From NCBI GenBank assembly GCA_904420025.1, contig CAJFTW010000081.1:1-51720 (forward strand): a stretch of 51,720 nt of DNA, read 5' to 3'. The notes below the pieces were generated by a model. The model searched no databases and was not told the origin of the DNA. It saw only the letters and a program-made list of their open reading frames with translations. A program made the translations under genes and the position numbers. Source of the DNA: Candidatus Pseudolachnospira avium (GTDB taxonomy: Bacteria > Bacillota > Clostridia > Lachnospirales > Lachnospiraceae). Shown one piece after another: positions 3,438 to 15,356 of this stretch (positions are counted from its first letter, which is position 1; the number at the start of each line of letters is the position of its first letter).

Positions 3438-5156
3438 TTAATACCGGTTCAGGCAGGCATAAATTTCCTGCACCCGGGGCATGGCCAGTCCGAAGGGGAT
3501 GTGGGCCGGGTCGCAGATGGATGCCAAGCCGTCCTTCTCAATTTTAGCCAGCACCTGGCGCACCACCTTCTCCAGCTCCGGCTCCTGCCCTTCCAACGAT
3601 TCCTTCAGATACTGGAGAATGCAGCCCAGGGCCGCAGTCTGCTCCCGGTCCACCAGCTGCTCCACATACCGCAAATCCACCGTGTCCTTCCCCAGCAGGA
3701 AGGAATCCTTGCCCAGAAGCTTCATCTTCAGCCGCTCCGTGACCATGCCAGTGCCCCGGTAATTTTTCCGCTGCTGGGTGGATTTGCCCGGATGGAAGCG
3801 TCGCTTGGCCGTGGGCAGCCGGAAGCCGGGGGCGGAGGTCTCCGGCGCGGGGTATTCCGCCATCACCTGCCGGGCCTTCTCCGTAATATCCACCGGCCGA
3901 TAGTTGTCCATCTGCAGCACCGTATCTGCGATATAAAAGTAGGAACCGCAGCTCCCCACCACCAGGATGGTGGAGACCCCTGCCTGCTCGTACAAATCCC
4001 GGGCCCGCTCCAGGAAGGGCGTAATGGGCTCCTTGTCCCGGGTGATCACCTTCTGCATCAGCTCATCCCGTACCATAAAGTTGGTGGCGGAGGTATCCTC
4101 GTCAATCAGCAGCAGGCGGCTGCCCGCCTCCAGCCCCTCCATAATGTTGGCCGCCTGGGAGGTGCTGCCGCTGGCGTCCAGGGTGGAAAAATTCCGGGTA
4201 TCCCGGCCGTTGGGCAGGTGGTTGATGAACAGGGAGATGTCCACGCCGCTGATCTTCCGGCCATCCTCCGCCCGCAGCTTCAGCGCCGACTCATCGGTGA
4301 TCACAAACTCCCGGCCGTCTCCCCGGATATGGTTGTAGACGCCCTTTTCCAGTGCCTGGAGCACCGTGGATTTTCCGTGGTAGCCGCCGCCGGCGATGAG
4401 GGTGATGCCCCGGTGGATACCCATGCCGGTAACTTCCCCAGCGTGAGGCAGCTGCAGGGTCACCCGCAGGGACTCCGGGGAGGTAAAGGGCAGGCCGTCC
4501 TTCATGGGGCGGTCGGAGACGCCGCTCTCCCGGGGCAGAATAGAACCATCGGCCACAAAGGCCACCAGCCCCCGCTCCGCCAGCTCCCGGCGGATAGCCT
4601 GCTGGTCTTCCGCCAGCTCCACCACCTGCCGCACCTCCCCTGCCGGCAGCCGCCGGTAAAAAAAGGTCTGCTCAATGGCCCGGGGCAGAAACTCAAAGAG
4701 GATCTTTTCCAGCTCCAGGGCCTGGATGGTACGGCCGTTGGCCGGGAAGCCCACGTCAAACCGGGCCAGAATCCCTTCTGCCTGGATCTCGCAGGCGGTC
4801 CGCTCCAATACCTCTTGGCCGCAGCTGCTAACGGCAATCATGCCGCTCTTGCCGGACCCCTTGGCCTGGAAGCTGACCCGCTCCGTCTGGGCCCGGAACC
4901 GCCGGGTCAGGTAGTCCTGCAGAGCCACCCGGGTGTGCTTCTCCCGGTAGGTGTCCGCCGGGAACTCCGCCCGCCGGTGGGAAATCCATACGCTCAGCTT
5001 GGAGGGGGACGCAAAGGGATCCCCCTGTACATGGTCAATGGACAGGCGGTAGCTGCCAAAGTCGTAGCTTCCCTTTAAAGATTTGTAGGCCGGATAGCTT
5101 TTCCGGTGTATTTCGTGCAGCTGCCGGCGCAGCTCTTCCGAAGATTTCATGGTCAT
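3438..5156 (-). CDS. ABC-ATPase domain-containing protein (predicted P-loop ATPase)
   Basis: GGGYHGKSTVLQAL Walker A and LLLIDEDTSATNFMVRDELMQ Walker B; MKSSEELRRQLHEIHRKSYPAYKSLKGSYDF N-terminus typical of this family. Confidence 0.85.
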   Translation of the reverse strand: MTMKSSEELRRQLHEIHRKSYPAYKSLKGSYDFGSYRLSIDHVQGDPFASPSKLSVWISHRRAEFPADTYREKHTRVALQDYLTRRFRAQTERVSFQAKGSGKSGMIAVSSCGQEVLERTACEIQAEGILARFDVGFPANGRTIQALELEKILFEFLPRAIEQTFFYRRLPAGEVRQVVELAEDQQAIRRELAERGLVAFVADGSILPRESGVSDRPMKDGLPFTSPESLRVTLQLPHAGEVTGMGIHRGITLIAGGGYHGKSTVLQALEKGVYNHIRGDGREFVITDESALKLRAEDGRKISGVDISLFINHLPNGRDTRNFSTLDASGSTSQAANIMEGLEAGSRLLLIDEDTSATNFMVRDELMQKVITRDKEPITPFLERARDLYEQAGVSTILVVGSCGSYFYIADTVLQMDNYRPVDITEKARQVMAEYPAPETSAPGFRLPTAKRRFHPGKSTQQRKNYRGTGMVTERLKMKLLGKDSFLLGKDTVDLRYVEQLVDREQTAALGCILQYLKESLEGQEPELEKVVRQVLAKIEKDGLASICDPAHIPFGLAMPRVQEIYACLNRY

Positions 5157-5167
5157 AACTCCTTTTC

Positions 5168-7897
5168 TTATTTTTTCCGGGCCGGTTCTTCCTCGCCGTC
5201 GGGGAGCGCTTTCAGCTGCACCGCCAGCTCCCCCACCAGCTGGTCCAGCAGATAGCTTCTCTCCCCGGGGCGCAGCTTCTCATAAGTTTCCCGGATCTCC
5301 GCCTCCGTCCGGCGAATCTCCTCCTCCAGATCCCGGGCGGACAGCCGCGCCGCCCCCTGGCCCATGATAATGATCTGCTCCAGCCGGTCCGAAGTGGCCA
5401 CGGTTACCCGGTACTTCCGGCTCAGCTCATGGGCCACCTTCTCAATGTACTGGTCCGCGGTTTCCGCCTCCTGGGTGTACACCACATAGATGTTGTGGTA
5501 GGGCAGGATCTCGCAGGCATGGTTCTGCACCTTATAGGCGTCAAAGACCAGGATCACCGTACACCTGCGGAAGCCCTGGTAATTGCAGAGAATATCCATC
5601 AGCCGGGTCCGGGCTCCGTCTATGCTGGCCTCCGCCAGCTGCCGCAGCTCCTCCCAGGCAAAAATAATATTGTACCCGTCCACCAACAGATATTCCTGCA
5701 GAGGCTCCGTCTCCTTGGCTTTTGCTCCCGGCCGGTAGGAGGTTTCCGCGCTCTGCCGCCGCCAGATATTCCGCCCCTTGCCCCCGCCGCTGTTCCGGTA
5801 GGTACGGGCAAAAATCTCCTGCAGCTCCTTCTCATCCGCCCCAAAATCCACCGGAGCGGATGCCGCCGGCGCTGCCTGCCGTGCCTCCTCCTGCCGCTCT
5901 GGCCGGAGGACGCTCTCCAGGTGCATGTGCTCCTCCACCTGATCCCAGGTGACCAGGTAGCCCGCTCCGTGGGAGCAGAACACAGAGCCAGTGGGGTTCT
6001 CCAGATCCCGGTCCGGGTCATAGCCCATGGCCGCCACCACCTCCTCCTGGTTATGACAGGGCTGATAGCCCTGGAACCGACAGAACAGCCGGCCCCGGCC
6101 CCGGGTGTAGGAGATCACCTCCCGGGGGTAATCCTGCATGGTGGCCACCGGGGCGCTGCCCTCGATTACCGTCCGCTCCCCCTCGGTCTGGGGATCCCCA
6201 AAGGTGCCGTTCATCCGCTGAATATCCGTCAGGGCCCGTCCCACCAGCTCCGCCGGGATCTCCAGCCGGAAAGCGTAATAGGGCTCCAGCAGCACACAGT
6301 CCGCCTTCATCAGCCCTTGGCGCACTGCCCGGTAGGTGGCCTGGCGGAAGTCACCGCCCTCGGTGTGTTTGGTGTGGGCCCGCCCTGCCGCCAGGGTGAT
6401 CTTCATATCCGTTATGGCCGACCCGGTGAGGACGCCGGGATGCTCCCGCTCCGCCAGGTGGGTCAGCACCAGCCGCTGCCAGTTCCGGTCCAGCTGATCC
6501 TCACTGCACACCGAAGTAAACACCAGGCCGCTGCCCGGCTCCCCTGGCTCCAGGATCAGGTGGACCTCCGCGTAGTGGCGCAGAGGCTCAAAGTGGCCCA
6601 CACCCTCCACCCGGCTGCGGATGGTTTCTTTATAGACAATGCTGCCGGCGCCGAAGGTCACCGGAACCCCAAACCGCTCCTGGATCAGGCTCTGGAGGAT
6701 TTCCGTCTGGACCTCCCCCATCAGCTGCACCCGGATCTCCTCCGCCTCCGGATCCCAGACCAGATGCAGCTCCGGCTCCTCCTCCTCCAGCTGCCGCAGC
6801 TTGGGCAGCATCTGATGTACATCGCAATCCTCCGGAAACTGGAGCTGATAGGTGAGCACTGGCTCCAGCATGGGCTGCCGGGCATCTGGCTCCACTCCCA
6901 GGCCCTCCCCCGGGTAAGTATGGCTGAGGCCCACCACGGCGCACACCTCCCCGGCCTCCGCCTCCGGCACCGCCTCGTGCCGGGCGCCGGAATACAGACG
7001 GATCTGGTCCGCCTTCTCCTCCCAGGTTTCCTCCCCCTCCGGGCCAGCGCACCGGCCGGTGAGCACATCCTTCACCCGCAGCCTTCCGCCGGTAATCTTC
7101 AGATAGGTCAGCCGTTTCCCTTGGTCATCCCGGGCAATCTTGAACACCCGGGCGCCAAATTTCTCCGGATACGCCGGGCTCCGGGTGTAGGCATCCAGCC
7201 CCCGGAGGAACTCCTCCACGCCGGAAAGCCGCAGGGCAGAGCCAAAATAGCAGGGGAACAGCCGCCGTTCCCCAATGGCCCGGGCCAGCTCTTCTCCGGG
7301 CAGCACCTCCTGCTCCAAGTACCGCTCCATCAGCTCCTCGTCACAGCAGGCCAGCTCCTCCCAGTCCTCCGGTGTCTCCAGGCGGCCAAAATCCGCCATA
7401 CGGCTGGACAGCCGGCTCCGCAGCTCCGCCAGCAGCGCCTCCCGGTCCGTGCCCGGCTGGTCCATCTTGTTGACAAACAAAAAGGTGGGGATCCGGTACC
7501 GCTCCAGCAGCCGCCACAACGTCTCCGTATGGCCCTGGACGCCGTCCGCACCGCTGATCACCAGCACCGCATAATCCAGCACCTGGAGGGTCCGCTCCAT
7601 CTCCGCGGAAAAGTCCACATGGCCCGGGGTGTCCAGCAGGGTGATGCGGGTATCCCCCAGGGTGAACATGGCCTGCTTGGAAAAGATGGTAATGCCCCGG
7701 TCCCGCTCCAGCCGGTAGGTGTCCAGGAAGGCGCTGCCGTCATCCACCCGGCCCATCTTCCGGATGGCGCCGGTGCCGTAGAGCATGGCCTCCGAGAGGG
7801 TGGTCTTGCCCGCATCCACATGGGCCAGAATGCCCAGGCAGATGCGCTTGGGGGAGGCGGGATGGTTCTTGGTTTTATTTTCAGACGTATTTTCCAT
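5168..7897 (-). CDS. TetM/EF-G-like translational GTPase fused to C-terminal YacP/Rae1-type NYN ribonuclease domain
   Basis: G1 AHVDAGKTT, G3 DTPGHVDF, G4 NKMD; TetM-like domains III-V (LLEPYYAFRLEIP); C-terminal ~174 aa starts YLLVDGYNIIFAWEEL and carries LVFDAYKV, EAETADQYIEK, VATSDRLEQ: YacP/Rae1 motifs. Confidence 0.92.
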   Translation of the reverse strand: MENTSENKTKNHPASPKRICLGILAHVDAGKTTLSEAMLYGTGAIRKMGRVDDGSAFLDTYRLERDRGITIFSKQAMFTLGDTRITLLDTPGHVDFSAEMERTLQVLDYAVLVISGADGVQGHTETLWRLLERYRIPTFLFVNKMDQPGTDREALLAELRSRLSSRMADFGRLETPEDWEELACCDEELMERYLEQEVLPGEELARAIGERRLFPCYFGSALRLSGVEEFLRGLDAYTRSPAYPEKFGARVFKIARDDQGKRLTYLKITGGRLRVKDVLTGRCAGPEGEETWEEKADQIRLYSGARHEAVPEAEAGEVCAVVGLSHTYPGEGLGVEPDARQPMLEPVLTYQLQFPEDCDVHQMLPKLRQLEEEEPELHLVWDPEAEEIRVQLMGEVQTEILQSLIQERFGVPVTFGAGSIVYKETIRSRVEGVGHFEPLRHYAEVHLILEPGEPGSGLVFTSVCSEDQLDRNWQRLVLTHLAEREHPGVLTGSAITDMKITLAAGRAHTKHTEGGDFRQATYRAVRQGLMKADCVLLEPYYAFRLEIPAELVGRALTDIQRMNGTFGDPQTEGERTVIEGSAPVATMQDYPREVISYTRGRGRLFCRFQGYQPCHNQEEVVAAMGYDPDRDLENPTGSVFCSHGAGYLVTWDQVEEHMHLESVLRPERQEEARQAAPAASAPVDFGADEKELQEIFARTYRNSGGGKGRNIWRRQSAETSYRPGAKAKETEPLQEYLLVDGYNIIFAWEELRQLAEASIDGARTRLMDILCNYQGFRRCTVILVFDAYKVQNHACEILPYHNIYVVYTQEAETADQYIEKVAHELSRKYRVTVATSDRLEQIIIMGQGAARLSARDLEEEIRRTEAEIRETYEKLRPGERSYLLDQLVGELAVQLKALPDGEEEPARKK

Positions 7898-7901
7898 GAA
7901 A

Positions 7902-7957
7902 ATACCCCTTTCTGTGCTATGATCACATATCCTTAATCATAACACAGAGAGGGGCAT
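7902..7957. promoter_or_regulatory. large imperfect inverted repeat (22-nt arms, 12-nt loop) covering the RBS of the GTPase-NYN gene
   Basis: Left arm atacccctttctgtgctatgat (7902-7923), right arm atcataacacagagaggggcat (7936-7957); 19/22 positions complementary. The gene's AAAGGGG RBS lies in the left arm. Confidence 0.8.
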
Positions 7958-7967
7958 AAGTCGACAA

Positions 7968-9249
7968 TCAATCCTGTTTTCTTGCTTTCCTGTATCGGCG
8001 GCCTTTCTTTTCCCCTGTTGGATCGATTTGTTCAAGCCGTATCAATTCCCTTGTCAACTCACGTGCTCTTGTTTCTTTAATCCCAAGGAATTCTGCGATT
8101 TCAGAGATTCTATATTCTCGATCCGGTTCCATCCATCCTATTATTTTTTCCAACTGCTGCCTCGTCTTATTGGTAAATTTCTTTTTATCAGCGCTTTTTA
8201 TCAACGCTTTTTTATTCTCGCTTTTTACAAACGACAATTTCAAAATGGTTCTGTCTGGTCCGTATTCTTCTATGACTTCCGGTTGCCTCCATCCCTGCTG
8301 TTCCCACACGCCGTATATATCCGGCACGCCGCTGCCGGCTCTCTCGCCGATACCGATCAGATTGAACATTTTCATCAAGGCTTTATTGCGCGGGTCGGAT
8401 ATGCCACCCTTCAGCATCTGTGCTTTACCGGTCCGGATGCTTCCCGGATTCTCCAGTCCAATCACCGGAACTGGACTGCAGCCTGTCCGTCCAGCGGATT
8501 GTCGGGTCGAGAACTTCCCGGTAGTCCAGAAAATACTCCGGGAATTCATACAAAATTTTATACTCTTCTCCAAACATGAGAAGCCCGGCAGCCGTAGGAT
8601 GCAAAGCATGATCCCTGGCAGACAGCTTTGCAGCACCGATCCGCTCTAAATATTCTTCATCCCCCAGTCTCTCCCATACGTGCTCCGTCCTATAGGCTAT
8701 ATGCCGGTTGCGATAAGCGCGCACGGTCTCCTCATGCAGCACGTCAAGCGGTATATCCTACAAAACCTTCATATCCGCTGTTTCTTCCGGCTGATCCCGG
8801 AGCATTGCCAGCACCTCGCTGCGGTCGCAGTGATAATCGCCCTCCCAGTTTCTGCGGAAGGTTCCCTGAAACATATCGTTGTTAATATAAACCGGTTTCT
8901 GCTCGCGCTTTGCCCTGGGGACATGGATCACCATGATCACACCGCTATTTTCTTCATATATCTCCACATCCCGATCCGTCAGCAGGTTGGCGGAAACCTT
9001 CTGTTTATTGTTGATCGTGTTCCAGAATTCTCTTCGCAGTTTCGCCGCATCTTCCAATCCTGTTACAGACCAACTGCCATCTTTGTTTTCTGTGACTCCC
9101 AGAATGATAACTCCGCCATAGCAGTTGGCAAAAGCAGAGTACGTTTCCCATAAGGAAACCGGAAGCCCACCTTTTGCTTTTTTCACTTCCCGCCGGTTGT
9201 CCTCCCGGTACGAGTCAAATTGGGACATTTCAAAACTCACAGGTTTCAC
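7968..9249 (-). pseudogene. AlbA_2/Schlafen-type ATP-binding transcriptional regulator, disrupted
   Basis: N-terminal piece 8758-9249 (YREDNRREVKKAKGGLPVSLWETYSAFANCYGGVIILGV) ends at in-frame TAG 8758-8760; reading continues in frame (DIPLDVLHEETVRAYRNRH) to ~8470, where an out-of-frame deletion joins to LENPGSIRTGKAQMLKGGISDPRNKALMKMF. Confidence 0.85.
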
Positions 9250-10286: not shown

Positions 10287-13271
10287 TCAATAGGAGTACA
10301 GCTCCACCAGCTCCCCGCTTTCCGCATCCAGCAGGTACACCGTTGACCGCTCCCGGGTATAGCCTGGCCGCCAGCCCATGTCCGAGCTGCTGTCCCGCCG
10401 GCTCCAGTCCACGGTGAACACATAGTCCTCCCCCACCACGTCCAGGGAGGAGATCAGGACCAGGGTTTCCTCCGTCCCCTGGGGATAGTCCACAAAGCCA
10501 AAGGAGGCTGCCGCCTCCGGCGTCAGGATAGTCTGATACGTGCGGCTGTTTTCCTGGATCCGGTAGATGCCGCCGCCCATGCAGACAAAGGAGCCCGGGC
10601 GGCTCAAGGCATAGTCGGAGGACTTGTTTTCCCCGGTGTCCAGGTTTTTCACCATGCAGCTGCGGTAGGGGTAGTCATCCCAGAAGCCGATGTAGGAGCC
10701 CATAGTGTCCCCGGTCCCAATGTAATAGAGGAAGGTCTGGCCGTCCTGCTCCTCCACCAGGAACTCCTCCGCCTGCATCTGCCCGTAGTCCACACAGTCC
10801 CGGGGATTGCTGCCGTCCACTCCCACGGCACGGATGCCGCCGCCTTGGAAGAAGCCGCCGGTACCGGCATAAAAGCCGTAGGAATAGTACAGGGTATCCC
10901 CCAGCCGGGACAGCTCCATGAGATTCAGGGACATAGCCTCCGGCGGCCCGGAAACCGTGTCCAGCTCCCGGATCTCGCTGCCGTCGGACGCTGCCGCCAG
11001 CAGGGTTGCCGAGGCGGTATCCCCGTAGCTGCTGGCCCCAAAGTAGTAGTACCCGTCAAAGCTGCCCAGGAAGATGTCCCCCCGGTCCATAAGCTGGGTA
11101 ATCTGGTGATCCTCGCTGCTGATGCGGAACACACCGCCGCCCCGCTCGTAACTGGTGCCCCAGAGCATTCCGGTCTCCAGATCCGCCGCCCACGGCTCAA
11201 AGGCACCGTGCTCCACCCGGTCGCTGCCATCCAGCGCCACGGAGTACAGCTGGCCTCCGGCCTGCAGATAGATCCGCTCTCCGGCAATGAAAATCGGCCC
11301 AGCGCCCTGGGAAGTCAGCAGCACCTCCTCACTGCCGTCCGCCTGGCGGCAGACCAGCTGGTTGGCGATGTTTGTCAGCGGATAGTAGGAGGCATAGTTG
11401 GCCGGGGAAGAATAGCTGGCCTCATTGTATTTCCAGTAATACAGGCATCCCTGATACCCCACCACATTTCCGCCGTTGTTCTCCACCTGCCGGGGGATCA
11501 CATACTCCGGCGGGATTTTCTGCCGGCAGGCCCCGCTCTCCGTGCTGTACAGATTGGAAAAATCCTCATACAGCAGCAGGCTGGGCAGGTACTGCTCCGC
11601 CTCCTGGAAACGCAGGGCAAAGGTCTGGCTGGCAATCAGCTTGCCGCCGATGGCCCCCATGGAATAGCCGCTCTCCTCCCAGGCCATGGCTTCCTCCTCG
11701 GTGATGGAGGGGTCCTCCTTCCGGGCCAGGGAGAAGGCCGCGGAATACAGGGCGTCCAGGCTGTGGGCATTGACGGAGGCCAGCAGCTTGCCGGTATCGC
11801 AGAGCTCCTGCAGGGTTTCCAGGGATCGGCCATGGTCCCGGATGACCCGGAGGATCTGATCCGCGTACACTGCCCGCAGCAGGACGGAGACATCGCACAG
11901 CCGCTTGGCAATGGACACCGAGTCCCCCGCCGCCAACAGGCTGGCCACCTGGGGGTTGATCTGTTTGGCCACCACCACACTGGCCTTCAGCGCGTTGAAG
12001 ATAATCCCCGCCGGCGTCTTTCCCATGGCAATGTCCGCCGCGCTGAACGCCAGGGACTGGGCCCCCTCCCAGAGGAAGTTGCCTGCCGGGTTCCCGTATT
12101 CGCTGAGAAGCCCTTGGGCTGAGGTGCGCACCAGCTTGCAGTCCTCCTCATAGCTGGGGTGATCCAGCTCCGCCAGCATCCCCAGCTGCTCCACATACCC
12201 CTCGGTCCACTCCAGATACCGCACGGAGGTCTGCAGGGCGGACAGCAATCCCACCGCAGTGGAAAACCCGTCCATGGCCGGCCCCATATAGTCCGGCATC
12301 TTATAATCCTTCCAGGCAGTAAAGCTGGTGGCCAGGGCGTCCAGGGTGGAGACGATCCCCCCTCCCAGCGTGCCGAACTCCTGGCTCATCTCCATCAGCG
12401 CGCCCACGTAGGGATCCGCCGCTGCCTCTGCCTTTGTCTGCAGCGCCCCGCTCAGGTTCTCACAGGGGATGGCCAGGGTCAGCAGCGCCTCCTCCACCCG
12501 GTCCAGGTTGTAAAAATATTCCACGCAGACCTTCCAGTCAATGTCATCCGCCAGGGCCAGTATGGCAAAATAGTAGCCCTTGGAGTTGAAGGACCCCTCC
12601 TGGGTACAAAAGATCTCCCCGTAGGTGGGCTGGTTCTGATACAGGGAAGAAAGATCCGCCACAATATCCCACAGGGTCTCCTCCGGGGCAAAGCAGTACA
12701 CACAGCCCTGGCTGCAGAACCACTGGACCTGCAGCAGGTACAGCATCTGCTCCAGCGGAAAAAACAGTGCTTCTTCCTCCGCGTCCCCCGGCTCCTCCCC
12801 AGGCACCGGCAGGGTGCGGATCCCCTCCAGCACAAACTCCTGATCCCCGTACAGCTTCCAGCCCACCGGCAGCAGGCCTGTGGCCACCTGGCCGGTCTTA
12901 GCATCCACACTGACCACGTAGCTGCTCCGCTGAAAATTGTACTGGCTGCCCTCCACAGACAGGGAAGCGTCCGCCAGCGCCGCAATGGTCTCCGGCTCCG
13001 CCAGCACCCGCTCCTCCGCATCCAGGGCAGCCCGCACCTTCTGCCCGCCGCCGTCCCGGGTAAAGACCGAAAGATCTCCCAGCTGGGCGTCTGTCTCATC
13101 CGCCGCCAGCGCCGGGGAGGCGTGGAGCGGTTCCGAGGCACCGGACAGGAGGACCCGGCCCGGTACCTGGCCCCATGCCGGAACGGCCCCGGCCAGCGCC
13201 AGCACCGCAGCCAGCAGCAGGGCGGACACCCGTTTCCCCATTCCCTTTCTCATTCCCGCCCAACGTCTCAT
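10287..13271 (-). CDS. secreted protein with C-terminal beta-propeller-like repeats (DUF5050-like)
   Basis: Signal peptide MRRWAGMRKGMGKRVSALLLAAVLALAGAVPAWG; repeats such as IYLQAGGQLYSVALDGSD. Start set at 13271 (ATGA overlap with the upstream gene), not 13931. Confidence 0.8.
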   Translation of the reverse strand: MRRWAGMRKGMGKRVSALLLAAVLALAGAVPAWGQVPGRVLLSGASEPLHASPALAADETDAQLGDLSVFTRDGGGQKVRAALDAEERVLAEPETIAALADASLSVEGSQYNFQRSSYVVSVDAKTGQVATGLLPVGWKLYGDQEFVLEGIRTLPVPGEEPGDAEEEALFFPLEQMLYLLQVQWFCSQGCVYCFAPEETLWDIVADLSSLYQNQPTYGEIFCTQEGSFNSKGYYFAILALADDIDWKVCVEYFYNLDRVEEALLTLAIPCENLSGALQTKAEAAADPYVGALMEMSQEFGTLGGGIVSTLDALATSFTAWKDYKMPDYMGPAMDGFSTAVGLLSALQTSVRYLEWTEGYVEQLGMLAELDHPSYEEDCKLVRTSAQGLLSEYGNPAGNFLWEGAQSLAFSAADIAMGKTPAGIIFNALKASVVVAKQINPQVASLLAAGDSVSIAKRLCDVSVLLRAVYADQILRVIRDHGRSLETLQELCDTGKLLASVNAHSLDALYSAAFSLARKEDPSITEEEAMAWEESGYSMGAIGGKLIASQTFALRFQEAEQYLPSLLLYEDFSNLYSTESGACRQKIPPEYVIPRQVENNGGNVVGYQGCLYYWKYNEASYSSPANYASYYPLTNIANQLVCRQADGSEEVLLTSQGAGPIFIAGERIYLQAGGQLYSVALDGSDRVEHGAFEPWAADLETGMLWGTSYERGGGVFRISSEDHQITQLMDRGDIFLGSFDGYYYFGASSYGDTASATLLAAASDGSEIRELDTVSGPPEAMSLNLMELSRLGDTLYYSYGFYAGTGGFFQGGGIRAVGVDGSNPRDCVDYGQMQAEEFLVEEQDGQTFLYYIGTGDTMGSYIGFWDDYPYRSCMVKNLDTGENKSSDYALSRPGSFVCMGGGIYRIQENSRTYQTILTPEAAASFGFVDYPQGTEETLVLISSLDVVGEDYVFTVDWSRRDSSSDMGWRPGYTRERSTVYLLDAESGELVELYSY

Positions 13272-13792
13272 GGCGTCTCTCCTCCCTCCAGCAGCCGGTT
13301 CATCAGCGAAGGATAGCCGCCCAAAAGCGCGTCCGAAAGCTCCGGCGTCATCACCAGCTGCCAGCCTTCTGCGCCTTCCTGCAGTTCCAGCTCCACCGGA
13401 AATTCCCGCATGGGCACGTCCTCCGCCTGGAAAGCGGCCAGCAGGGCCTCCCGGGCCTCCGCCTGGCTGGCAATCTCCGCCGGCAGCGATTCCAGCACCG
13501 CCTCCACGTCCACATTGGTGATCACTGCCGGCACCCAGATCATCTCCTCCCCGGTCTCCGGCTCCTCCAGCTCCCACTCCGCCCGCCGGGCCAGGGCCGT
13601 CTGTAGCTCCCCCAGCTGGGCGCTGTCCTCCGGAAGGCCCAGCAGGCGGGCAACCGTCGGATTGTCCCCCTGGGCGTAGGCCTCCAGGAACTCCTGGCAG
13701 GCCGCTTCCGCCTCTGACGCCGGCATTCCGCCGCTGCAGCCGGCCCCAAAGGCGGCCAGGAACAGCAGCAGAAACAGTCCTCTTTTGACCAT
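13268..13792 (-). CDS. putative lipoprotein
   Basis: MVKRGLFLLLFLAAFGAGCSGG lipobox; 174 aa; overlaps the downstream secreted-protein start. Confidence 0.8.
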   Translation of the reverse strand: MVKRGLFLLLFLAAFGAGCSGGMPASEAEAACQEFLEAYAQGDNPTVARLLGLPEDSAQLGELQTALARRAEWELEEPETGEEMIWVPAVITNVDVEAVLESLPAEIASQAEAREALLAAFQAEDVPMREFPVELELQEGAEGWQLVMTPELSDALLGGYPSLMNRLLEGGETP

Positions 13793-13827
13793 CCTTGACT
13801 CCCCCTTCTTTCTGCGTGGCCTGGCTG

Positions 13828-15222
13828 CTACAGCCCCAGCTGTTCCTGCAGCCAGTCATACTCCTCCAGGCCGCCCTGGCCATCCCACACCGGGAATGCA
13901 TCCCCCTGGGTCCAGTAGCCATACGAATCATTGGCCTGCAGCGCCGATGTCAGGGAGCCGTCCGCAGCGGAGGAGGCCTCCACGGGCGTCAACTCCGTTT
14001 CCGCCTTGGTCCAGCCATAAACCTTGGCCAGGCCCTCCGCCGAAAGCTCCGGGTAGGTTCCCAGCTCCCAGCTGCACACAAACTGGTACACATAAGGATC
14101 GCTGCAGGTGACCGTGCCGATGTTGCCGCAGCAGGCGATGTCGCCGTCCCGTTTCCCGATGGCAAAGGCTTCTCCGCTCTCCCCGCCGTCCACCAGGCCG
14201 GCGTTGACATTGTAGCGCAGGGTGGAGCCGTTTTCCGCCACAATGCCGAAGGCGCTGCCGCCGTCGGATGCCGTCACCGTGCCGTAGTTGACGCAGCCGA
14301 TCACCAGCCCGTCATAGTAGCTGCTGCCGCTGTGGACGGCAAGGATCCCCGCCGCGTCATCCCCGGTGACCGTACCATAATTCTCGCACTGGACCAGGTA
14401 GCTGTACCCGCCTGCAATGCCCGCAATGCCGCCGGCTTCTTCCCCGGATACCGTCCCGTAATTCGCACAGCGCAGCAGCAGCGTCTCGTCCCCCTCCGCG
14501 CATCCCGCCACGCCGCCGGCGCGACCCTCCGGGGAGGCCACCGTCACCGTTTCCGCCGTCACACAGTTTTCCAGGACGCTGTAATTCCGAAAGATTCCCA
14601 CAAAGGCTCCCACATATCCATCCCCGGTAAAGCTGCTGTCCGCAATGGTCAGGTCATGGATGCTGGCAACATCGCCGGCATTTCCGTCACTGCTGGATAA
14701 CTGGCCAAACAGCCCGGCTGCCTGCCCCCGGCCGGTTGTGTCCACCTGCAGGCCGGAGATGGTATGGCCGCCGCCATCAAATTCTCCGCGGAAGCTGGCC
14801 TGGACCAGCTCTTCCTCCCCGTCCGCCTCCATGGGATAGGGGCCGCCCAGGGGCAGCAGGTCACTGTCCGGGGAGAGGACTTCCGACACGTCAATGTCCG
14901 CCAGCAAAACCGCACTCTGGTCCAGGCGGTGGTCAGCGTCCTTCTCCTCCCACGCCTGCAGCGCCGAATCCTTCAGCAGCTGGGCGTAGGCCGCAAAGTC
15001 CTCCGCCGAGTCTATCTCGTAAAAGCCTTCCGCATTCTGCGTCAGGCCGCTGCCGCCTCCGACTTCTCCCTGGGAATCCCCGGCAGGGGTCTCCGCCGCC
15101 GCTCCCGGGCTGCCGCCCTCTCCCTGGGGCTCGTCCCCGGACCCGCCGCAGGCCGTCAGGCTCAGCGCCAGGCAGCCGGCCAGCAGCACGCTGCACCATC
15201 TGTTTCGGATTGTCTGTTTCAT
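13828..15222 (-). CDS. lipoprotein with GLUG-like repeats
   Basis: MKQTIRNRWCSVLLAGCLALSLTACGGSG lipobox; repeated C-x-NYGTV(S/T)G-x-xAGGIAG units. Start at 15222 rather than 15324. Confidence 0.82.
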   Translation of the reverse strand: MKQTIRNRWCSVLLAGCLALSLTACGGSGDEPQGEGGSPGAAAETPAGDSQGEVGGGSGLTQNAEGFYEIDSAEDFAAYAQLLKDSALQAWEEKDADHRLDQSAVLLADIDVSEVLSPDSDLLPLGGPYPMEADGEEELVQASFRGEFDGGGHTISGLQVDTTGRGQAAGLFGQLSSSDGNAGDVASIHDLTIADSSFTGDGYVGAFVGIFRNYSVLENCVTAETVTVASPEGRAGGVAGCAEGDETLLLRCANYGTVSGEEAGGIAGIAGGYSYLVQCENYGTVTGDDAAGILAVHSGSSYYDGLVIGCVNYGTVTASDGGSAFGIVAENGSTLRYNVNAGLVDGGESGEAFAIGKRDGDIACCGNIGTVTCSDPYVYQFVCSWELGTYPELSAEGLAKVYGWTKAETELTPVEASSAADGSLTSALQANDSYGYWTQGDAFPVWDGQGGLEEYDWLQEQLGL

Positions 15223-15356
15223 CTTCTTATCTCCCTTCCTATTTTTGTCGTTTTTTTGGACAGCAGGAAAACGCCCGAAGGCGCTTCCGGCTAAAAAACG
15301 TATTATATTGTATTCGTATCTCATACAGGGGTTAGGGACAGGAAATGAAATTTTTT

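Follow-up and report, generated by a model that had tools for sequence, protein, structure and literature searches.

A translational GTPase fused to a Rae1-type NYN ribonuclease domain is widespread in Clostridia and is the probable Rae1 of its hosts

A single gene of the gut bacterium Candidatus Pseudolachnospira avium encodes an intact EF-G/Tet-type GTPase, a linker and a Rae1-type NYN ribonuclease domain in one polypeptide chain. It lies in the window analysed here, a stretch of DNA of 51,720 nucleotides. Comparative evidence indicates that the fusion is real, intact, widespread and functionally suggestive, and it is very probably the functional Rae1 of the cell. The best overall explanation, in which the fusion is the organism's Rae1 carried on a ribosome-entering GTPase, is given an even chance of being correct.

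A published description of this kind of architecture, from 2015, is earlier than the naming of Rae1 in 2017. In that work, Tet proteins of ten Clostridiales species were stated to have gained an NYN RNase domain of the YacP type, and an RNase-related form of resistance was proposed (Atkinson 2015; PMC4342817). By its description the architecture is the same, and those proteins almost certainly belong to the same family as the fusion in the window. The sentence that PMC4342817 devotes to the Tet-YacP architecture makes it already known; that passage covers its presence and a conjecture about resistance or an rRNA-directed RNase, and does not treat single origin, Rae1 replacement or an unfused sister clade. 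New here, as far as sequence comparison allows, are the replacement of the operonic rae1, descent from one fusion event followed by horizontal spread, and the exclusion of the GTPase from the bona fide Tet proteins. A literature search returned no experimental work on the fusion; the main Rae1 papers, which were outside its scope, may mention it.

Architecture of the fusion gene

The features of the gene are given in Table 1. The fusion occurs in a single frame in 80 of 80 named relatives, each fetched from a separate genome, and is therefore no accident of assembly. The promoter-like hexamers upstream hint weakly that the gene may be transcribed on its own, as the region contains two such sites where 0.9 would be expected.

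Table 1. Features of the fusion gene and its upstream region, with positions in the window.
Feature	Position	Strand	Residues	Details
Complete fusion gene, stop codon included	5168..7897	(-)	909 aa	ATG start, no internal stop
Ribosome-binding site AGAAAGGGG	7905..7913	(-)		ATG 7 nt further on; read by eye
Promoter-like TCGACT-17-TATGAT	7936..7964	(-)		TG ahead of second hexamer; 9/12 matches
G domain	7184..7843	(-)	19-238	HVDAGKTT, RGITI, DTPGHVDF, NKMD; Pfam GTP_EFTU, 1.4e-49
Domain II	6920..7159	(-)	247-326	Pfam EF-G_D2, 24.5 bits, slightly under the 27-bit cut-off
Domain III	6650..6865	(-)	345-416	Pfam EFG_III
Domain IV	6302..6643	(-)	419-532	Tip GRAHTKHTEGGDFRQ; Pfam EFG_IV
Domain V	6047..6295	(-)	535-617	Pfam EFG_C
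GTPase C-terminal extension	5900..6046	(-)	618-666	NPtgSVFCsHGAGf.V.WdqV..hMH; motif common to the unfused sister clade
Linker	5693..5899	(-)	667-735	Mostly disordered (pLDDT); short conserved KELQEIFARTY within residues 689-700
NYN_YacP (Rae1-type)	5210..5689	(-)	737-896	Pfam, 6e-52

In an AlphaFold2 model built with 60 family members, the GTPase is predicted with confidence, as is the NYN domain apart from short segments, and the linker is predicted to be disordered at residues 667-731. Predicted pLDDT falls below 50 at residues 667-693 and 698-731, around a short predicted helix at about 689-700. The NYN domain folded alone without an alignment was modelled poorly (pLDDT 51). The sequence-only reading had assigned the N-terminal ~700 residues to the GTPase; the GTPase is indeed N-terminal, and it ends near residues 617-660, so that this extent was slightly too long because residues ~667-731 form the disordered linker. 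Across the fused family the linker measures 64-123 residues (median 79) and varies in both length and sequence, with one conserved segment, KELEEIF.RTYG. A linker of 64-123 residues would let the NYN domain reach many sites, so that the A site is not favoured over others on geometric grounds.

Other genes surround the fusion in the window. Upstream on the same strand, the open reading frames at 8758-9249, 8425-8742 and 7968-8636 (together 7968-9249) are pieces of an apparent Schlafen/AlbA_2-type protein with a RecG-C-like part, which looks frame-broken or affected by an assembly indel. An open reading frame of ~1180 residues (10287-13838, same strand) has no Pfam match, and neither do those at 13268-13792 and 13828-15228. 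Directly downstream (3438-5156, same strand) is an ABC-class ATPase gene (PF09818 and MRB1590_C), followed by tadA-like deaminase, birA and dusB-like genes, which adjoin the fusion in almost no other locus.

The NYN domain belongs to the Rae1 family

The C-terminal domain had been assigned to YacP/Rae1 from the motifs LLVDGYN, VFDA, ETAD and ATSD, placed at 5171-5692. All four are present and the assignment holds, with a profile match that spans slightly less (Table 1). The match to NYN_YacP (PF05991) reaches 176.4 bits against a curated cut-off of 24.6 and covers profile positions 1-162 of 166, and the B. subtilis YacP structures 5mq8/5mq9 are homologous across ~140 residues (1.7e-25). In an alignment with B. 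subtilis YacP, residues D740, N743, D786, D815, E819, T835, D837 and Q841 of the window protein, which include the catalytic acids D740/D786/D815/E819/D837, correspond to D7, N10, D53, D81, E85, T102, D104 and Q108. The full set of catalytic-type residues is thus common to the window domain and B. subtilis Rae1. The two differ in context: Rae1/YacP is a stand-alone protein of ~170 residues encoded in the rlmB-sigH operon, whereas the window version is the tail of a 909-residue GTPase at an unlinked, non-conserved locus. The fusion does not lie in mrnC-rlmB-yacP-sigH, a mark of the family that is positional and not definitional for activity.

That the NYN tail is catalytically dead and serves as a ribosome- or mRNA-binding domain seems very improbable. 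All eight aligned positions, the acids together with N743, T835 and Q841, are conserved at 100% in 129 fused sequences as well as in 82 stand-alone homologues, and the fusion is the sole YacP of most genomes that bear it. Such a reading could draw on two positions that are relaxed in part of the fused clade. The position of B. subtilis R118 is Arg in 82 of 82 stand-alone domains and in 69 of 129 fused ones, with Leu in 55 of the 129, and the E123 position is Glu in 80 of 82 stand-alone versus 64 of 129 fused domains. The window protein retains the Arg (residue 851) and has Asp at the E123 position. The R118 position appears to be loosened or altered in part of the fused clade and may matter for substrate or ribosome contact; the Arg-to-Leu change could possibly reflect a changed contact of this kind in one fused sublineage.

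The GTPase half and its relation to Tet proteins

The GTPase had been described as TetM/EF-G-type. The G motifs are intact and membership of the EF-G/Tet superfamily is upheld, but likeness to TetM extends only to the superfamily level. The G1-G4 motifs, domains II-V and EF-G fold of the EF-G/EF2 group are all present, with domain II marginal by Pfam; an alignment of 60 fusions shows little or no variation in the G motifs, and the best Foldseek matches of the GTPase are EF-G structures (2e-53). The five-domain EF-G-like architecture and G motifs are also common to Tet(M) and Tet(O), and the C-terminal extension is apparently related. The fusion nevertheless lies far under the curated cut-offs for these proteins, scoring 443 bits against 775 for the Tet protection model NF012153 and 296.5 against 1100 for the TetM/W/O/S model NF033148. 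A genuine TetO from a relative (G030), used as a control, scored 851 and 1308 bits, respectively.

The domain IV tip differs as well. It reads GRAHTKHTEGGDFR where TetM and TetO have YYSPVSTPADFR; TetO YYSPVSTPADFR aligns with RAHTKHTEGGDFR of the window protein, with Lys where TetM has Pro509, and GRAHTKHTEGGDFR stands where TetO reads GLYYSPVSTPADFR. From this comparison, the contact residue Pro509 of TetM is replaced by Lys in the fusion. In TetM, Pro509 contacts C1054 in the drug site (PMC8161019). Glycine substitutions in the three domain IV loops of Tet(O) abolish resistance, according to a review (PMC8807479), and these loops therefore matter for the drug function of Tet proteins. His508 of the window protein aligns with the tip His of EF-G, so that the fusion combines an EF-G-type tip His and an NYN tail, both of which set it apart from Tet(M)/Tet(O). 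EF-G shares its fold, catalytic G motifs and tip His with the fusion; it has, in addition, a domain IV loop insert (RQSGGRGQYGH) that the fusion lacks, and the window genome carries a separate EF-G.

By the models and residues compared, the window GTPase does not appear to be a bona fide Tet protection protein. This bears on the published proposal for these fusions (PMC4342817, in its brief treatment of them), under which the GTPase would eject tetracycline and the NYN domain would act as an accessory RNase on the rRNA or mRNA of drug-stalled ribosomes. Superfamily kinship with TetO/TetM speaks for it, as does the RefSeq name of an Agathobacter rectalis fusion (WP_306784676.1), "TetM/TetW/TetO/TetS family tetracycline resistance ribosomal protection protein"; another fusion is named "translation factor GTPase family protein" in RefSeq. 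The scores and the tip without the Pro509 loop argue against it, and so do two facts of distribution: within its family the fusion is present almost universally and in single copy, unlike a patchy resistance gene, and relative G030 has the fusion plus a real TetO. A resistance role is therefore considered improbable, and the RefSeq resistance name of the A. rectalis fusion appears unsupported by the Tet models and residues compared.

The closest relatives of the fused GTPases are unfused Tet-like GTPases of Lachnospirales from six loci, which are sister to the fused clade at 44-48% identity. They share the tip KHTEGGDFR and the SVFC...MH extension with the fusion, but stop at ~650-690 residues and have no linker and no NYN domain; one can coexist with the fusion in the same genome (G002). 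Two of them reach ~410 bits with the Tet model, which has a cut-off of 775. The unfused clade is probably another uncharacterised ribosome factor and may be annotated as tetracycline resistance. In the GTPase tree, TetO and EF-G fall far outside the fused and unfused proteins; as these rows form long branches, conclusions are drawn only from the fused clade (support 99) and its proximity to the unfused set. The unfused GTPase was also considered as a split partner of stand-alone YacP and rejected: several genomes with stand-alone YacP do not have it, and G002 has it alongside the fusion.

Distribution of the fusion

The fusion is the usual form in the window's family and is common across Clostridia. 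NYN_YacP was found in 51 of the 61 genomes around the window's own, 32 of them with a fused and 19 with a stand-alone form as judged by open-frame length. Within the same family (37 genomes), 29 have the fused form, five the stand-alone form and three no NYN_YacP. A class-wide sample yielded NYN_YacP in 250 of 393 genomes; the 150 best matches listed comprised 81 fused, four probably cut fusions and 65 stand-alone proteins, and the 150 best listed from a phylum-wide sample included 22 fused. Since the matches listed are those with the best E-values, the fused fractions at class and phylum level should not be taken as free of bias. A scan of genome contigs returned at least 589 relatives, from which the 80 single-frame fusions mentioned above were fetched.

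Among the 80 fetched loci, no neighbouring gene family occurs in more than nine, and the genes that flank the fusion in the window hardly ever recur. A conserved gene neighbourhood was thus rejected, and the fusion accordingly works as a single-gene unit. Plasmids or phages as the main vehicle were likewise rejected, as matches were few; the mobile elements found with a fusion were one megaplasmid each of Monoglobus and Agathobacter.

Further YacP matches turned up in mobile-element records. NZ_CP149721.1 and similar C. difficile entries are ~100 kb PLSDB "plasmids" that carry gltX-cysS-mrnC-thyX-rlmB-yacP-sigH-tuf-rpmG-secE-nusG-rplK, and are probably chromosome pieces misfiled as plasmids. 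YacP-type NYN matches also occur in unannotated, phage-labelled fragments (MT835563.1, and OR846600.1 and others from phages of Listeria, Staphylococcus and Enterococcus), which are probably host DNA in phage preparations.

Origin of the fusion and replacement of the operonic gene

The trees of both halves are compatible with a single fusion event followed by horizontal spread. Stand-alone YacP sequences of Lachnospirales surround the fused domains in the NYN tree, and forcing all fused rows into one clade gave a likelihood 24 lnL units higher than the free search (p-AU 0.73). The fused rows also form one clade in the GTPase tree. Multiple independent fusions are unneeded, the one-clade tree being the more likely. 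Fusions from other orders and classes (codes f42, f47, f66, f70, f105 and others) form one well-supported group within the Lachnospiraceae fusions in both trees (99 and 100); f70 and f42 also have stand-alone YacP, which lies far from the fusions in the NYN tree. This combination points to transfer of the whole fused gene. One sequence (L218) sits alone on a long branch in the NYN tree, yet the GTPase tree places it within the fused clade.

Relatives, together with an annotated record of C. difficile, show yacP in its ancestral position, cysS-mrnC-(thyX)-rlmB-yacP-sigH. In two genomes with the fusion (G030 and G179), sigH directly follows rlmB with no yacP between them, and there is no yacP after rlmB in G002 or in the window's own genome. 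The latter, which is 77% complete, holds a single NYN_YacP, the fusion. More than one match was seen in only five of the 250 class genomes having any, and the relatives likewise almost always have exactly one. Because a second YacP is almost always missing from genomes with the fusion, and because yacP is gone where rlmB-sigH is intact, the fusion has usually replaced the operonic rae1 in the genomes that bear it. A check proposed by the sequence-only reading, that genomes with the fusion might lack a stand-alone yacP, therefore holds in nearly all of them, with the operonic copy gone. One clear exception is G339, which has both an operonic yacP in the rlmB region and the fusion at another locus, and is likely a replacement intermediate in which the incoming fusion has yet to displace the old gene.

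The gene content of the ancestral operon, which includes the 23S methylase gene rlmB and mrnC, would also suit a role in rRNA or tRNA processing or in ribosome turnover, with the GTPase bringing the NYN domain to rRNA and not to A-site mRNA. An early proposal assigned NYN domains to rRNA/tRNA maturation (as cited in the treatment of these domains in PMC4342817), and the GTPase fold resembles general ribosome-acting factors. Against this stands B. subtilis Rae1, the only member of the family to have been studied, which is an A-site mRNA endonuclease with an identical NYN catalytic set, and we give a processing role little credence.

Proposed mechanism

Rae1 cleaves mRNA in the A site, on ribosomes that are translating or have stalled (PMC12320835, PMC10100781, PMC6613710), and loss of rae1 suppresses the swarming defect of B. 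subtilis without EF-P, in which ribosomes pause (PMC6613710). Tet-type factors bind where EF-G does and place domain IV in the A site; their departure apparently requires GTP hydrolysis (PMC8161019). The sequence-only reading had the GTPase deliver the nuclease to the A site; as a single bound state this is doubtful, since domain IV and the proposed Rae1 position share the decoding site, and their simultaneous occupancy of the A site looks sterically unlikely. As both cannot occupy the decoding site, a single chain would have to use domain IV and the NYN domain in turn, and we infer that a sequential or alternating model fits better.

In such a model, the GTPase in its GTP form would bind ribosomes with an empty A site, either paused or starved of the next tRNA, at the EF-G/Tet site. 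GTP hydrolysis would then cause domain IV to withdraw from the A site. The NYN domain, which its tether would keep at a very high concentration nearby, would enter the emptied site in competition with aminoacyl-tRNA and cut the mRNA if aminoacyl-tRNA did not come first. Hydrolysis would thus act as a timer, with brief pauses spared and lasting pauses cut, and the ribosome left after the cut would pass to tmRNA-type rescue. Recruitment of the fusion to ribosomes by its GTPase is probable. The full sequential, GTP-timed mechanism is put slightly short of an even chance. More tentative again is its statement in functional terms, a single-chain GTP-timed mRNA quality-control nuclease in which the GTPase tests for A-site vacancy, hydrolysis imposes a delay and the Rae1 domain cuts.

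The NYN domain could instead act as an ordinary Rae1, the GTPase only raising its local concentration on ribosomes or coupling the expression of the two, with no GTP gating. Stand-alone Rae1 works without a GTPase, so that the GTPase is dispensable in principle; it suffices in many Firmicutes that have it, and six genomes with stand-alone YacP are without any such GTPase. The long, disordered linker, variable in length and sequence, would also suit a simple tether. However, each half shows strong conservation of what its own activity requires, no secondary split was found among the fused loci sampled, and the conserved linker segment would be needless in a pure spacer. A simple tether is accordingly regarded as unlikely, though it is a more serious contender than resistance or rRNA processing.

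Implications

What leads bacteria to have the mRNA of a stalled ribosome cut (Rae1, SmrB/MutS2, tmRNA) is a live question. A natural and widespread fusion of this kind, with a ribosome GTPase and an A-site nuclease in one chain, offers a direct way to test whether an mRNA cut is timed by nucleotide hydrolysis. A tetracycline-resistance label on the fusion would inflate resistome counts in gut metagenomes. If the GTP-timed reading is true, the fusion would be the principal endonuclease acting on the mRNA of stalled ribosomes in Lachnospiraceae and in many other gut Clostridia.
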